From Cupriavidus pauculus (GTDB lineage Bacteria > Pseudomonadota > Gammaproteobacteria > Burkholderiales > Burkholderiaceae): a stretch of DNA of 64,000 bases. Each line of letters starts with the position of its first letter. Position 1 is the stretch's first letter. The DNA lies in contig NZ_VZOW01000023.1 in the NCBI RefSeq assembly GCF_008801835.1, positions 1-64,000 on the forward strand, given 5' to 3'. A model generated the notes under the pieces. That model saw only the letters and a program-made list of their open reading frames with translations. It did no database searches and had not been told where the DNA came from. Made by a program: the position numbers and the translations under genes. Shown piece by piece: positions 1,005 through 19,646 of the stretch.

Positions 1005-1628
1005 CTACCTTGAAAGGCTGTACTGGCCGCCGCGACGGATTGCGGCCCGATAGGCGGGGCGTCCGTGGAGTCGATTGATCCATCCGTCGAGATTGGGTCG
1101 ATCGTGCCGTAACCCATACACACCGGCAAGCTCTCCGACAAAGCTCATCTGGACATCAGCAGCACTGAATTGCTCCCCCAGAAGGTAACGCCGGCCTTCG
1201 AGGGAAGACTCAACGTAGCCCAAGTGATTGGTCAGCTCACTTGTTATTCGCGGGTGCAATGGTGCGCCTGCATCACCGATGCGATCGACATAGAGCTTCA
1301 GCAACAGCGGAAGCATCGCGGAACCCTCAGCATAGTGCAGCCACTGCACGTATCTTTCATAATCAGGACTGTCCGGATCCGGCTGGAGGAAACTGCCGTA
1401 TTTCCGAACCAGATAGTCGATGATGGCTCCAGACTCGTGAATGACGGTGTCCCCATCCACGATCACAGGCGACTTTCCTAGCGGATGGATGGCGGCCAGT
1501 TCTGGAGGCGCAAACCGAGTTGACGAATCACGCGTGTAGAACTGGATTTCGTATTCTCGACCGAGCTCTTCCAGAAGCCAGAGAACACGTTGCGATCGGG
1601 ACTCGTTGAGATGATGGACAACGATCAT
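1005..1628 (-). CDS. Glutathione S-transferase family protein
   Basis: A cytosolic enzyme that would conjugate glutathione to electrophilic compounds. The 207 residues have the two-domain GST layout. An N-terminal thioredoxin-like domain (about 1-80) starts with the Ser-containing active-site segment NESRSQRVLWLLEEL and has the cis-proline/Glu-Ser glutathione-binding part HPLGKSPVI...IHESGAI. An all-helical C-terminal domain follows, with the N-capping segment FSAADVQMSF near 155-165. Length is normal. It stands alone and is transcribed divergently from the ArsR gene across about 350 bases. Substrate is unknown; the island context suggests detoxification of electrophiles. The segment TTACC-N4-GGTAA at 1789-1802 could be its regulator's site. 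Confidence 0.85.
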   Translation of the reverse strand: MIVVHHLNESRSQRVLWLLEELGREYEIQFYTRDSSTRFAPPELAAIHPLGKSPVIVDGDTVIHESGAIIDYLVRKYGSFLQPDPDSPDYERYVQWLHYAEGSAMLPLLLKLYVDRIGDAGAPLHPRITSELTNHLGYVESSLEGRRYLLGEQFSAADVQMSFVGELAGVYGLRHDRPNLDGWINRLHGRPAYRAAIRRGGQYSLSR

Positions 1629-1788
1629 TGATAGACTCCAACCCCGCAGACGGGGACCATTAAAGTGGGATAGCGATCCACACGATGCCTGTCGAACTGG
1701 CTATTCCAAACCAGCTTTGAGCGCATACGAACTGGTCGAAGCGACCCTCATGTGTGGCGGCGCCTGATGCGGGCTACTGTAGCATAAA

Positions 1789-1802
1789 TTACCGTCTGGT
1801 AA
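1789..1802. promoter_or_regulatory. Palindrome TTACC-N4-GGTAA upstream of the GST gene
   Basis: Perfect five-base inverted repeat separated by GTCT; a second GGTAAC follows nine bases later. Similar GGTAAC direct repeats recur at about 3585-3603, upstream of the TetR gene. This kind of palindrome is typical of TetR- or LysR-type operators. Which protein binds is not known. Confidence 0.3.
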
Positions 1803-1956
1803 CTTATGTCGGTAACCGGGACATCGCAAGTCATAGGCACTCGCCATTGCTGGACAAACTCAGGGCCTGCGCGGAGAAACGTGGCCGACTCGCCCAATCA
1901 GGATGACAGACAGCGGCATGCACCATAGCTTGCCAACGATGGCATCGTCGCTTATA

Positions 1957-1976
1957 ATTTCGTCATTATGCGAAAT
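1957..1976. promoter_or_regulatory. Putative ArsR operator 1
   Basis: ATTTCG at 1957-1962 and CGAAAT at 1971-1976 form a perfect six-base inverted repeat with an eight-base spacer, five to ten bases upstream of the ArsR start codon. An identical arrangement lies at 2324-2343, before the alkene reductase gene. Finding the same half-sites and spacing on both flanks of a small ArsR gene argues for autoregulation and control of the reductase. Confidence 0.65.
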
Positions 1977-1981
1977 CTCGA

Positions 1982-2293
1982 ATGCCCATGATCGAACTGG
2001 TAGAGCAGTTCAAGGCGCTTTCCAGCGAAGTGCGGCTCCAGATTCTGGAGTGGCTCAAGCAGCCTGAATATAACTTTCCGCCAACCCATGCCCCGAATGG
2101 CTGGGCCGAAGGTGTGTGTGTCACGCATATTCAGCAAAAGGTCGAGATGTCGCCCTCAACAGTCTCCACGCATCTGTCGATTCTCCAGCGTGCCGGTCTG
2201 GTCGAAACGAGTCGCGTGGGTCAGTGGACGTATTACCGCCGTAACGAAAAGGCCATCGCTCAGTTGGCCCGACGCATTGGAAAAGATCTGTAA
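1982..2293 (+). CDS. ArsR-family transcriptional regulator
   Basis: A 103-residue winged-helix repressor. Residues 10-25 form the first helix (FKALSSEVRLQILEWL). The recognition region VEMSPSTVSTHLSILQRAGLV is at about 54-74 and the wing at VGQWTYYRRN. The classical metal-binding ELCVC motif is absent; a single Cys (GVCVTH, about 46) precedes the recognition helix, which suits a thiol-based sensor of reactive compounds better than a metal sensor. That is inference. The ATG at 1988 is an alternative start. The gene sits 125 bases upstream of the alkene reductase gene, and matched palindromes lie before both genes. Confidence 0.85.
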   Translation: MPMIELVEQFKALSSEVRLQILEWLKQPEYNFPPTHAPNGWAEGVCVTHIQQKVEMSPSTVSTHLSILQRAGLVETSRVGQWTYYRRNEKAIAQLARRIGKDL

Positions 2294-2323
2294 TGATTGG
2301 TTGCCCCCTTTATTTAGCCCATA

Positions 2324-17494: not shown

Positions 17495-18385
17495 ATGGAG
17501 CTGCGACACCTACGCTGCTTTGTCGTCCTGGCTGAGGAACTACACTTCACCCGAGCCGCTGAGCGCCTCCACATCGACCAATCTCCACTTTCCCGAGCAA
17601 TCAGGGAATTGGAGGATGAGTTAGGCACGTTGTTATTTGATCGGGACCGTCGTGGAACTCGACTGACCCAGGCCGGCACCGTATTTCTACAGGACGTGCG
17701 CCGTGTGTTCACCACACTGGATCAGGCTCGCGAAAACGTCAAGGCTGTATCCGCCGGTTATCGAGGTAGTCTGCGAATCGCGGTATCCGATGGCGCGATC
17801 GACCCACGCTTTTCCGAATTCCTGACACGCTGTCGAGAGGAAGAGCCTGAAATTGAGGTCCGGCTCTCCGAAGTCTCATTCTCGGAACAATTGCGTGGAC
17901 TACGATCAGGAGACTTCAGCATCGGCTTTGCGCATACCAATAGCGTCGGAAGCGGAATCGTGGCCGAAGCTATCTGGCATACACCTATCGTGGCGGCGCT
18001 CCCAGCTCGCCATCCACTGCTCGTTCATAAAGAAGTTCCGCTAGACGAACTAACGCGGTTTCCCTTGATCATGGTCGCCCCCCAAATGTGTGAAGGCTAT
18101 TTCCGAGAGCTGACCAAGCTGCTGCATGCCCAAGTGCATGAACCCAACGTTATCGAGCACGCAACCTCGCTGGACGTAATGCTTACGCTCGTTGCTGCGG
18201 GCTACGGCATCGGTTTTAGCTCTTTCGCTAGGGTAGCTACTTGCCGACACCCCAACATCGTGATTCGGCCTTTGGCAGTTGGATCGGCCGTTATCACGAC
18301 CTTTCTACTCAGGCCCGACAGTGAACACCCGTGCTTTCTACTAGAGCGATTCATGGCACGCCTACATCCTCTTAGCGACGAGTAA
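17495..18385 (+). CDS. LysR-family transcriptional regulator
   Basis: 296 residues: winged helix-turn-helix at 1-60 (MELRHLRCFVVLAEELHFTRAAERL, split here as family start, then QSPLSRAIRELEDELG), and a periplasmic-binding-protein-like effector domain from about 90. The effector half is of the CbnR/BenM kind (LRIAVSDG, then LVAAGYGIGFSS). The start at 17495 has AAAGGAG nine bases upstream; a longer frame from 17420 has no such site. LysR genes often control a divergent neighbour, but here both neighbours are same-strand or convergent, so its target is not clear. It could activate the upstream operon or regulate elsewhere. Confidence 0.88.
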   Translation: MELRHLRCFVVLAEELHFTRAAERLHIDQSPLSRAIRELEDELGTLLFDRDRRGTRLTQAGTVFLQDVRRVFTTLDQARENVKAVSAGYRGSLRIAVSDGAIDPRFSEFLTRCREEEPEIEVRLSEVSFSEQLRGLRSGDFSIGFAHTNSVGSGIVAEAIWHTPIVAALPARHPLLVHKEVPLDELTRFPLIMVAPQMCEGYFRELTKLLHAQVHEPNVIEHATSLDVMLTLVAAGYGIGFSSFARVATCRHPNIVIRPLAVGSAVITTFLLRPDSEHPCFLLERFMARLHPLSDE

Positions 18386-18392
18386 CCGTAGT

Positions 18393-18413
18393 CAATTCAA
18401 TTTTGTTGAATTG
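18393..18413. terminator. Palindrome after the LysR gene
   Basis: CAATTCAA at 18393-18400 and TTGAATTG at 18406-18413 pair perfectly around TTTTG, eight bases after the LysR stop codon. It is AT-rich without a following U-run, so a terminator role is possible but weak; an operator is the alternative. Confidence 0.3.
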
Positions 18414-18469
18414 CTGGAGGTATGCTCGAGGCGCCTGCTGACGCCATCGCGCCGCACGCAGGTGTCCAA

Positions 18470-18625
18470 GTCAATTGGAACCCGAACTTGGCGGCGATCA
18501 CGACCTGATCCCGGATGCCCCTGAAGGCTTCACCCAACAGTTTTAGTTCACGAATGGCCATAGGCTACGGCGAGGTTTCGAAGATTGTCACAGCACGATC
18601 CACCGCCGTTCCCAGCAACGAGATC
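18470..18625 (-). pseudogene. Remnant of a second aldo/keto reductase gene
   Basis: Read on the minus strand, the frame around 18555-18474 gives RELKLLGEAFRGIRDQVVIA followed by AKFGFQ. This parallels [19 protein letters not shown] with TKFGFN in the intact aldo/keto reductase just to the right. Nucleotides further toward 18625 also parallel the intact gene (the FFDTAEVYG region), but a stop codon and frame changes interrupt it. It is a decayed fragment of about 50 codons from a diverged paralogue, left by an insertion or recombination event. Confidence 0.65.
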
Positions 18626-18656
18626 GTTTCCTAAGCATCGTACAGCGGCACGGGAT

Positions 18657-19646
18657 TCAGCGGCCCGTGGTGGCAAGCAGGTGCGCCGGATAACGCTCGC
18701 CTTCAATGTCGATGGCAGCAAGCGCATCGGTGATGGCAGTGAGATCAGTGGCCGTCAGCACCACGTCTGCGGCGGCGATGTTTTCCTCCAGACGGTGGAG
18801 CTTAGTGGTACCTGGAATCGGCACGATCCACGGCTTCTGCGCCGACAACCATGCGAGCGCGATCTGAGCTGGCGTCGCATCCTTTTCTCCAGCGATGCGA
18901 CGCAACAAGCCGATCAGTGCCTGGTTCTTCTCCATCGCCTCGGGCGTGAAGCGCGGCAGCAACTTGCGGAAATCGCCATCGCCCAGCGGGGTGTCCTTGC
19001 TCATCGCGCCCGTCAGGAAACCCTTGCCGAGCGGGCTGTAAGGCACCAGGCCTATGCCGAGTTCTTCGCAGGCCGCGAGAATGCCGTTGCTTTCCGGCCC
19101 TCGCGTCCATAAAGAGTATTCGTTCTGAAGCGCCGAGATCGGCTGTACGGCGTGAGCGCGGCGCGCGGTCTCGGCACCGGGTTCGGACATACCGAAGTGT
19201 TTTACCTTGCCCTCGGCGATAAGCTCCTTGACAGTTCCGGCCACATCTTCGATCGGTACGTTTGGATCGACGCGATGCTGATAGAACAGATCGATCACCT
19301 CGGCACCAAGCCGTTTCAAGGAGGCATCGCAGACCTTGCGAATCTGCTCGGGCCGGCTGTCCATGCCAGCCATTTTTCCGTCCACGATGTTGAAGCCAAA
19401 CTTGGTCGCGATGACAACTTGATCGCGCACCGGCTCCAGTGCTTCGCCGACAAGTTCTTCGTTGGTATAGGGGCCATAGACTTCGGCGGTGTCGAAGAAG
19501 GTGACGCCACGCTCGACTGCTGCACGGATCAAGGCAATGCTGTCTGCCTTCCCGAGAGAATGACCGTAGCTGAAGTTCAAGCCCATGCAGCCAAAGCCGA
19601 TGGCAGACACTTCCAAGCCATTGGTTCCGAGTTTTCGCGTTTTCAT
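18657..19646 (-). CDS. Aldo/keto reductase
   Basis: An NADPH-dependent TIM-barrel reductase of 329 residues, in the group of YajO/PhyA-like AKRs. Catalytic tetrad candidates are Asp in [10 protein letters not shown] and its Tyr (near 51-56), Lys in VVIATKFGF (near 79), and His in [11 protein letters not shown] (near 120). The cofactor loop is in [15 protein letters not shown]. It would reduce aldehydes or ketones to alcohols. The start at 19646 is chosen at MKTRKLG; a frame start at 19661 is less likely. Its divergent neighbour is a LysR gene, the usual arrangement for a LysR-controlled reductase. Confidence 0.9.

Follow-up and report, generated by a model that had tools for sequence, protein, structure and literature searches.

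The nemRA-gloA operon of Escherichia coli is a described point of comparison for genes that handle reactive electrophiles (PMC3739934, PMC7464077; here and below, articles are cited from excerpts). In its repressor NemR, Cys106 and Lys175 form the bleach (chlorine)-sensing pair, and Cys21 and Cys116 are the electrophile disulfide cysteines (PMC7464077). The PfAR-1 allicin-resistance islands of Pseudomonas provide a multicomponent thiol-stress defence that was acquired as islands and includes tetR, oye and osmC (PMC7119367), and E. coli isolates with frmA and frmB genes on plasmids were formaldehyde-resistant (PMC13029678). In this work we analyzed the opening 64,000 nucleotides of contig C23 of Cupriavidus pauculus (the window hereafter; the genome measures 6.4 Mb), in which a TetR-family repressor gene of the CurR/NemR type precedes a run of 14 genes. 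Judged from its sequence, the region is a mobile, mosaic variant of nemRA-type electrophile operons; with moderate confidence, we read it as cargo of an ICEclc-like integrative and conjugative element (ICE), the core of which would be a TetR-controlled electrophile-defence operon with a NemR/CurR repressor acting on two operators.

The repressor gene (3857-4468, + strand) is followed after 136 bp by 14 genes on the same strand (4605-17327), all of them open frames, spaced by -4 to 100 bp. In order, with the bit score and the cut-off of the model in brackets, they encode a CurA-type NADPH-dependent enone reductase of the MDR family (4605-5636; NF058644, 541, cut-off 440), a DJ-1/PfpI family protein (5671-6348; every model under cut-off), a DUF1330 protein (6345-6665; PF07045, 68.2, cut-off 23), an oxygen-insensitive nitroreductase-like protein (6693-7523; NF008033, 195.8, cut-off 223), a succinate-semialdehyde dehydrogenase-like aldehyde dehydrogenase, ALDH1 (7597-8988, open frame from 7555; a 93.5% identical protein is found on a Citrobacter freundii plasmid), a benzaldehyde dehydrogenase-like one, ALDH2 (9076-10494; NF045701, 307, cut-off 550), the organic hydroperoxide reductase Ohr (10548-10958; TIGR03561, 159, cut-off 88.9), an Ahr-like zinc alcohol dehydrogenase/aldehyde reductase (10988-12043; NF047908, 303, cut-off 470), a second MDR reductase (MDR2, 12115-13128; profile search), a flavin reductase family protein (13229-13816; PF01613, 79.4, cut-off 27), the S-(hydroxymethyl)glutathione dehydrogenase FrmA (13889-14998; TIGR02818, 725, cut-off 544), a VOC family protein (15052-15450; PF00903, 29.1, cut-off 20.6), the S-formylglutathione hydrolase FrmB (15453-16280; TIGR02821, 398, cut-off 282) and a third MDR reductase (MDR3, 16365-17327; profile search). 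Thirteen of them belong to recognised families of electrophile, aldehyde or peroxide detoxification. The first-pass annotation had counted fourteen enzyme genes here, one of which is the DUF1330 gene that it left unnamed; the genes that it did name are all open frames of the matching families at their places, and the family matches support its view of a cargo that is coherent around reactive electrophiles. Among the enzymes, curated NCBIfam cut-offs are passed by CurA, Ohr, FrmA and FrmB; the others score under the cut-off or have a Pfam match only, therefore their exact substrates are not fixed by family assignment.

The same genes might instead form a catabolic operon, used on a single xenobiotic or plant phenolic (e.g. 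an enone, a nitroaromatic or an aromatic aldehyde) and carried as the clc genes are on ICEclc. Catabolic cargo is known on ICEclc and ICEXTD (PMC6050381), the nearest models of ALDH2 and ALDH1 are a benzaldehyde and a succinate-semialdehyde dehydrogenase, and the CurA model is named for curcumin; nonetheless, we consider a catabolic role unlikely, given that no ring oxygenase, ring-cleavage enzyme, CoA ligase or transporter occurs among the 21 genes scanned (1005-20730), that Ohr, DJ-1 and FrmA would build no pathway, and that one copy of the operon, described below, has an Old Yellow Enzyme (OYE) and an aldo-keto reductase (AKR) for ALDH2 yet keeps the other genes.

Regarding the control of a defence operon, the repressor was earlier called NemR-like, and it does match the NemR structure 4yze (E 4.7e-43); three other solved relatives (3rd3, 4l62 and 3knw) match it better, and CurR is its best NCBIfam model. 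Its residues C105 and K174 align without gaps with Cys106 and Lys175 of NemR, the numbering of chain 4yze being, as we assume, offset from that of NemR by two residues. The 12-bp word ACGACCGGTCTA occurs in exactly two exact copies in the 64 kb, one before the repressor gene (3823-3834) and the other between this gene and CurA (4518-4529). It is also present, in exact form, in three of the four homologue loci tested out of 29 fetched, whose homologues are about 50-58% identical, and in two of the four it flanks the repressor gene left and right. The C. freundii copy keeps the CurA site unchanged, and its upstream site, which differs at two positions, lies in DNA that otherwise hardly aligns. 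Because an identical pair flanks the repressor gene and recurs beside distant homologues, these words are likely operators. A TetR search in 369 genomes of the class gave loci with about 1.5 kb of flank, in which OYE lies beside the repressor in two (L132 and L133), DJ-1 in two others (L128 and L131), and Ohr in L131. The L128 and L131 loci are short, with a CurR-type repressor and the same 12-bp word, and they are possible small ancestors of the large operon.

From this arrangement, the repressor would bind the two like operators, before its own gene and before CurA, and hold down the run of enzymes, until Cys105, possibly in concert with Lys174 as for Cys106/Lys175 in NemR, is modified by an oxidant or electrophile and the repressor releases the DNA. 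Reductases for enones, quinones and nitro compounds (CurA, MDR2, MDR3, the nitroreductase and the flavin reductase) would then be made, aldehydes would be oxidised or reduced by the two ALDHs and the zinc alcohol dehydrogenase, formaldehyde would follow the glutathione route of FrmA and FrmB, and the peroxide reductase Ohr and the DJ-1 protein would also be produced. The operon would thus work like an enlarged nemRA-gloA operon, and may confer tolerance to formaldehyde, hypochlorite or preservative-type biocides.

It had been proposed that the usual frmR is missing and that the formaldehyde genes were captured by a thiol-sensing repressor. The first part stood, as the whole host genome has no gene of the FrmR family (PF02583; control genomes match in 6 of 14); the argument built on it is weak, since no more than 15 of 60 genomes of the genus have a gene of this family, so that the absence needs no special story, and we rejected it as a special event. 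A second class III FrmA is encoded elsewhere in the host (genome G000, contig C8, 16441-17538) and is over the curated cut-off. Formaldehyde is unlikely to be the only target of the operon, because in three other copies the fetched loci contain FrmA and no FrmB. A dedicated formaldehyde-resistance locus, that is frmAB under a new repressor, has in its favour that FrmA and FrmB are over their curated cut-offs and that E. coli isolates with these genes on plasmids were formaldehyde-resistant (PMC13029678); we regard it as very improbable, in view of those three copies, of the at least 11 of the 14 genes that are not known to act in the glutathione-dependent formaldehyde route, and of the scarcity of FrmR-family genes in the genus anyway. 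The Pseudomonas aeruginosa plasmid pBJ86 (L025, 9855-23528) shows the same theme, with genes for a LysR regulator, an SDR protein, a metal-sensing (FrmR-type) repressor, FrmA, a VOC protein, DUF3422, an AraC-type protein, a monooxygenase-domain protein, a second LysR, a zinc alcohol dehydrogenase, an alkene reductase, an LLM oxidoreductase and an HTH regulator.

Copies of most of the block are found in other genera. Among 36 flavin-reductase loci in named genomes (matches of less than 35% identity or 60% coverage were dropped), three carry the block: those of an Aquabacterium metagenome-assembled genome, Extensimonas perlucida and Burkholderia aenigmatica LMG 13014; the remaining 33 are without it, some of them with short flanks. 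Comparison of the three copies delimits a common mobile segment that comprises the 3' end of OYE and the genes from CurR to FrmA (3389-15025, + strand). In Aquabacterium and Extensimonas this segment is 99.9% identical to the window, with 10 of 11,537 and 7 of 11,208 alignment columns differing, and it is spread across two overlapping or abutting contigs, so that it is contiguous only in B. aenigmatica. The breakpoints are the same in all three copies, on the left at 3389, inside the OYE gene of the window, of which only the last ~142 bp are present, and on the right at about 15021-15025, after FrmA; VOC, FrmB and MDR3 were not found in the fetched loci. The transferability claimed in the first-pass annotation is supported by these near-identical copies of most of the block in other genera. 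The idea of 14 genes transferred as one unit was abandoned, since the breakpoints at 3389 and ~15025 are common to the three genomes and the last three genes were not found there.

In the three copies a related ICE carries the segment, always at the same site, and behind it comes a 1.3-kb element whose ends are GGTTCTTC...GAAGAACC; the one in B. aenigmatica aligns in full, at 81% identity, with a stretch annotated as an ISL3-family transposase. The host's own ICE part, which over 11.5 kb shares 97.6% identity with that of Extensimonas, has this insertion site empty, reading GGGGCTTTTTCTCGCCC, and the filled site reads GGGGCTTTTTC-insert-TTTTTCTTGCCC. A composite transposon with two insertion sequences (IS) was rejected for the ICE copies, as they have one ISL3-family IS only, at the right end. 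With a complete OYE to the left and VOC-FrmB to the right still in place, the window would appear to represent the older state, from which the IS-linked piece moved, which would give the direction of transfer. Most differences between the near-identical copies are concentrated in the repressor gene and the spacer that follows: between 4324 and 4526, in or just behind the repressor gene, lie from 4 of the 10 (Aquabacterium) to 5 of the 7 (Extensimonas) differing columns, all of them substitutions or single gaps, to which Aquabacterium adds a loss of 5 bp. The differences in this interval hint at a recent change in control.

Other searches, in collections that hold one genome per species, gave shorter matches. 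None of 107 plasmid records holds 80% of the query 3500-19700, and among the 40 plasmid records listed only that of C. freundii has a multi-gene match, of 4.4 kb. With the flavin reductase as query, none of 179 plasmid records reached 80% identity; with the repressor, the best of 821 was 78%, on the same C. freundii plasmid; and with the tail 15026-19750, none of 1,559 plasmid records in distant mode covered 80%, with VOC-FrmB the only part matched in the 10 listed. In a DNA search of 148 relatives no more than two candidates per genome were scored, so that it is no complete negative; among the matches listed, the longest one outside the host genome was ~1.6 kb. E. coli was rejected as a carrier of near-identical DNA, with no megablast match in the E. 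coli collection.

The copy of B. aenigmatica is itself mosaic. Compared in 300-base steps, it agrees with the window at 98-100% identity in its left end (the repressor and the first part of CurA) and again from the end of Ohr through FrmA, and its middle, from within CurA into Ohr, is 82-94% identical to the window where both have the genes. This middle stretch, in which OYE and AKR stand in the place of ALDH2, rounds to 100% per step against the C. freundii plasmid, up to the first 14 bases of Ohr, where the plasmid copy stops at the end that it shares with its ISPpu12 element; this copy is bordered by ISPpu12 at one side and, at the other, by a transposase fragment that has the same end. An insertion of OYE and AKR was rejected, as the identity profile is that of a recombined stretch from within CurA into Ohr. 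Since the middle in B. aenigmatica matches the C. freundii plasmid, the sequences indicate that two versions of the operon have recombined, and DNA has probably passed recently between beta- and gammaproteobacteria. On the C. freundii plasmid (L024, 16738-17922) DUF1330 and the nitroreductase form one open frame, and in the window (6345-7523) they are two genes, 27 bp apart.

Such breakpoints, ISL3 and ISPpu12 elements and recombination speak of repeated rearrangement, and regulators of other families lie within the island, as would be expected of a loose pile of oxidoreductases brought together by IS- and ICE-driven events, with neither a common regulator nor a common function. We think this quite unlikely, considering that 14 open frames share a strand and are never more than 100 bp apart, that the order CurR-CurA-DJ1-DUF1330-nitroreductase-ALDH1 is conserved, with 84% DNA identity, on the plasmid of C. 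freundii, and that the operator words recur. Going beyond the defence operon read in the window, we tentatively suggest, as an idea that may well prove wrong, a modular and self-contained tolerance operon with one CurR/NemR repressor, a fixed head (CurA-DJ1-DUF1330-nitroreductase-ALDH1), an exchangeable middle and a FrmA tail, whose spread among beta- and gammaproteobacteria, through capture by IS, transfer of ICEs and homologous recombination, would take place under the human use of reactive preservatives or disinfectants, one mobile unit giving tolerance to several unrelated biocides. B. aenigmatica LMG 13014 was a hand-cream contaminant (PMC7372133), and B. aenigmatica is the main Burkholderia cepacia complex species in spoiled skin-care products (PMC13414242; the words formaldehyde, frmA and genomic island are absent from the excerpt of this article). 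With one hand-cream isolate, the link of the operon to preserved products is only suggestive.

The carrier was recognised at its right end. A tyrosine integrase gene (21869-23713, - strand; PF13356, PF22022 and PF00589; NF007246, 198 bits, cut-off 434) lies beside a tRNA-Gly(GCC) gene (23938-24013, - strand; tRNA scan), the integration target, which is the first of a pair (the second is at 24098-24173). The 18-bp att (attachment) core is the 3' end of this tRNA (23938-23955, - strand) and has another copy, with 1 mismatch, on contig C27 of the host (G000, 63770-63787), directly beside a tRNA-Cys flank; when 3 mismatches are allowed, the search adds one unrelated place, on contig C45. In 12 of 12 fetched relatives of the genus the order tRNA-Cys, tRNA-Gly, tRNA-Gly and the same right flank are present without the island, and the homology of the window to the relatives ends at the 3' end of tRNA-Gly. 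The host flank is matched over its full length, at 79-84%, in 7 of 23 other genomes of the genus, and only in pieces by one Burkholderia and two Paraburkholderia genomes. Contig C27, which is separate from C23, encodes TraI_2, TraG_N, TraC, TraD and AcaB proteins. As the island lies at the 3' end of tRNA-Gly, at a site that is empty in 12 of 12 relatives, and an att copy is on the contig with conjugation genes, the carrier is probably an ICEclc-like ICE in a Burkholderiaceae host. The earlier claim of a tRNA-Gly element is supported by this empty site, and its IntB13 label rests on the tRNA-Gly/att pattern, the integrase being known here from its Pfam and NCBIfam domains only. The extent then given, 1005-19646, holds the genes named; the element is larger and runs from 23937 beyond the start of the contig, with its far att copy on C27. 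The contig starts inside an IS3-family element, the 3' end of ISRme13 (1-133, + strand), which is 100% identical to a Cupriavidus metallidurans plasmid stretch annotated as ISRme13; 16 of the 27 records with this end are from Cupriavidus and 11 from Burkholderia or Paraburkholderia.

Around the block, the island includes on the left a glutathione S-transferase gene (1005-1628, - strand; NCBIfam models of this type, all under curated cut-offs), an ArsR/SmtB-family regulator (1982-2293, + strand; NF033788, 75.9 bits, cut-off 55) upstream of OYE, and OYE itself, N-ethylmaleimide reductase-like (2419-3531, + strand; NF007899, 388 bits, cut-off 403). On the right, profile searches identified a LysR-family regulator (17495-18385, + strand), AKR (18657-19646, - strand), a second LysR-family regulator divergent from it (19804-20730, + strand) and a LysR substrate-binding domain fragment (21198-21863, + strand). 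The first-pass list lacked ArsR, both LysR genes and the fragment, and single control of the island is not supported, as ArsR adjoins OYE and LysR genes adjoin AKR. The fragment has no DNA-binding part, directly adjoins the integrase gene and is remnant-like. An outlier in GC and AT-skew at 56-58 kb is ordinary, namely the Arg/Glu-rich tail of an RNase E-like frame (by eye; 54614-57775).

Several observations weigh against a repressor-controlled defence operon carried by one ICE. The repressor, with 251.5 bits, is below the cut-off of 300 of the CurR model NF058643, and the positions of Cys21 and Cys116 of NemR are not cysteine in it, its only cysteines being 99, 105 and 202. One of the four homologue loci tested is without a ACGACCGGTCTA site, and operator 2 has one base changed in the Extensimonas copy. 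With two mismatches allowed, ACGACCGGTCTA is found in 6 places against 2.95 expected, a number reached in 5 of 100 shuffles, and the full palindrome TAGACCGGTCTA in 2 against 0.66, reached in 12 of 100. Promoter-like sites (4 against 3.7 in shuffles), in a scan that shows nothing above shuffles, and terminator-like sites (16 against 15.1) are not in excess, thus co-transcription rests on gene spacing. The second formaldehyde step is missing from the block of the three copies that have no VOC, FrmB or MDR3, the ICE is divided over C23 and C27, unjoined in the assembly, and broad oxidoreductases fit many substrates.

If the genes act as suggested, one mobile unit of 11 to 14 enzymes would give tolerance to aldehydes, enones, quinones, nitro compounds and peroxides together, and near-identical copies are already in several genera, including an isolate from a cosmetic. 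If this is true, the selection of transferable multi-target tolerance by biocide use becomes testable, and the natural exchange of ALDH2 for OYE and AKR under the same repressor type would be a way to learn the protection given by each part.

In the literature searched we found no description of this operon and no paper on CurR. As in the ICEclc family, for which the tRNA-Gly/att pattern has been described (PMC6050381), the carrier has an integrase beside tRNA-Gly and, at its other extremity, a second 18-bp copy of the tRNA 3' end, and the transfer genes on C27 would belong to it; the carrier differs in its detoxification cargo and in one att mismatch. With frmRAB and the plasmid-borne frmA/adhC resistance of the pVU3695 type it shares FrmA and FrmB on mobile DNA, and plasmid frmA resistance shares its logic (PMC13029678); in contrast, here there is no FrmR, and FrmA and FrmB are inside a broader TetR-linked run of genes. 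The PfAR-1 islands are alike in the logic of a multicomponent thiol-stress defence on acquired islands with tetR and oye, whereas they carry ahpD, dsbA, trx, kefF and kefC, and the excerpt of their description does not mention FrmA, ALDHs or CurA (PMC7119367). The resemblance to CurR-CurA (NF058643, NF058644) lies in a first enzyme over the CurA cut-off and in CurR as the best model for the repressor, which here is under its cut-off and is followed by 13 further genes after CurA. The E. coli nemRA-gloA operon, in turn, has three genes, whereas the locus described here has a repressor and 14, lacks the equivalents of Cys21 and Cys116, has CurA as the first target with OYE outside the operon in the window, and is mobile as a segment; in both, genes for electrophile detoxification follow a TetR repressor of the NemR type that has the Cys106/Lys175 pair or its equivalent.

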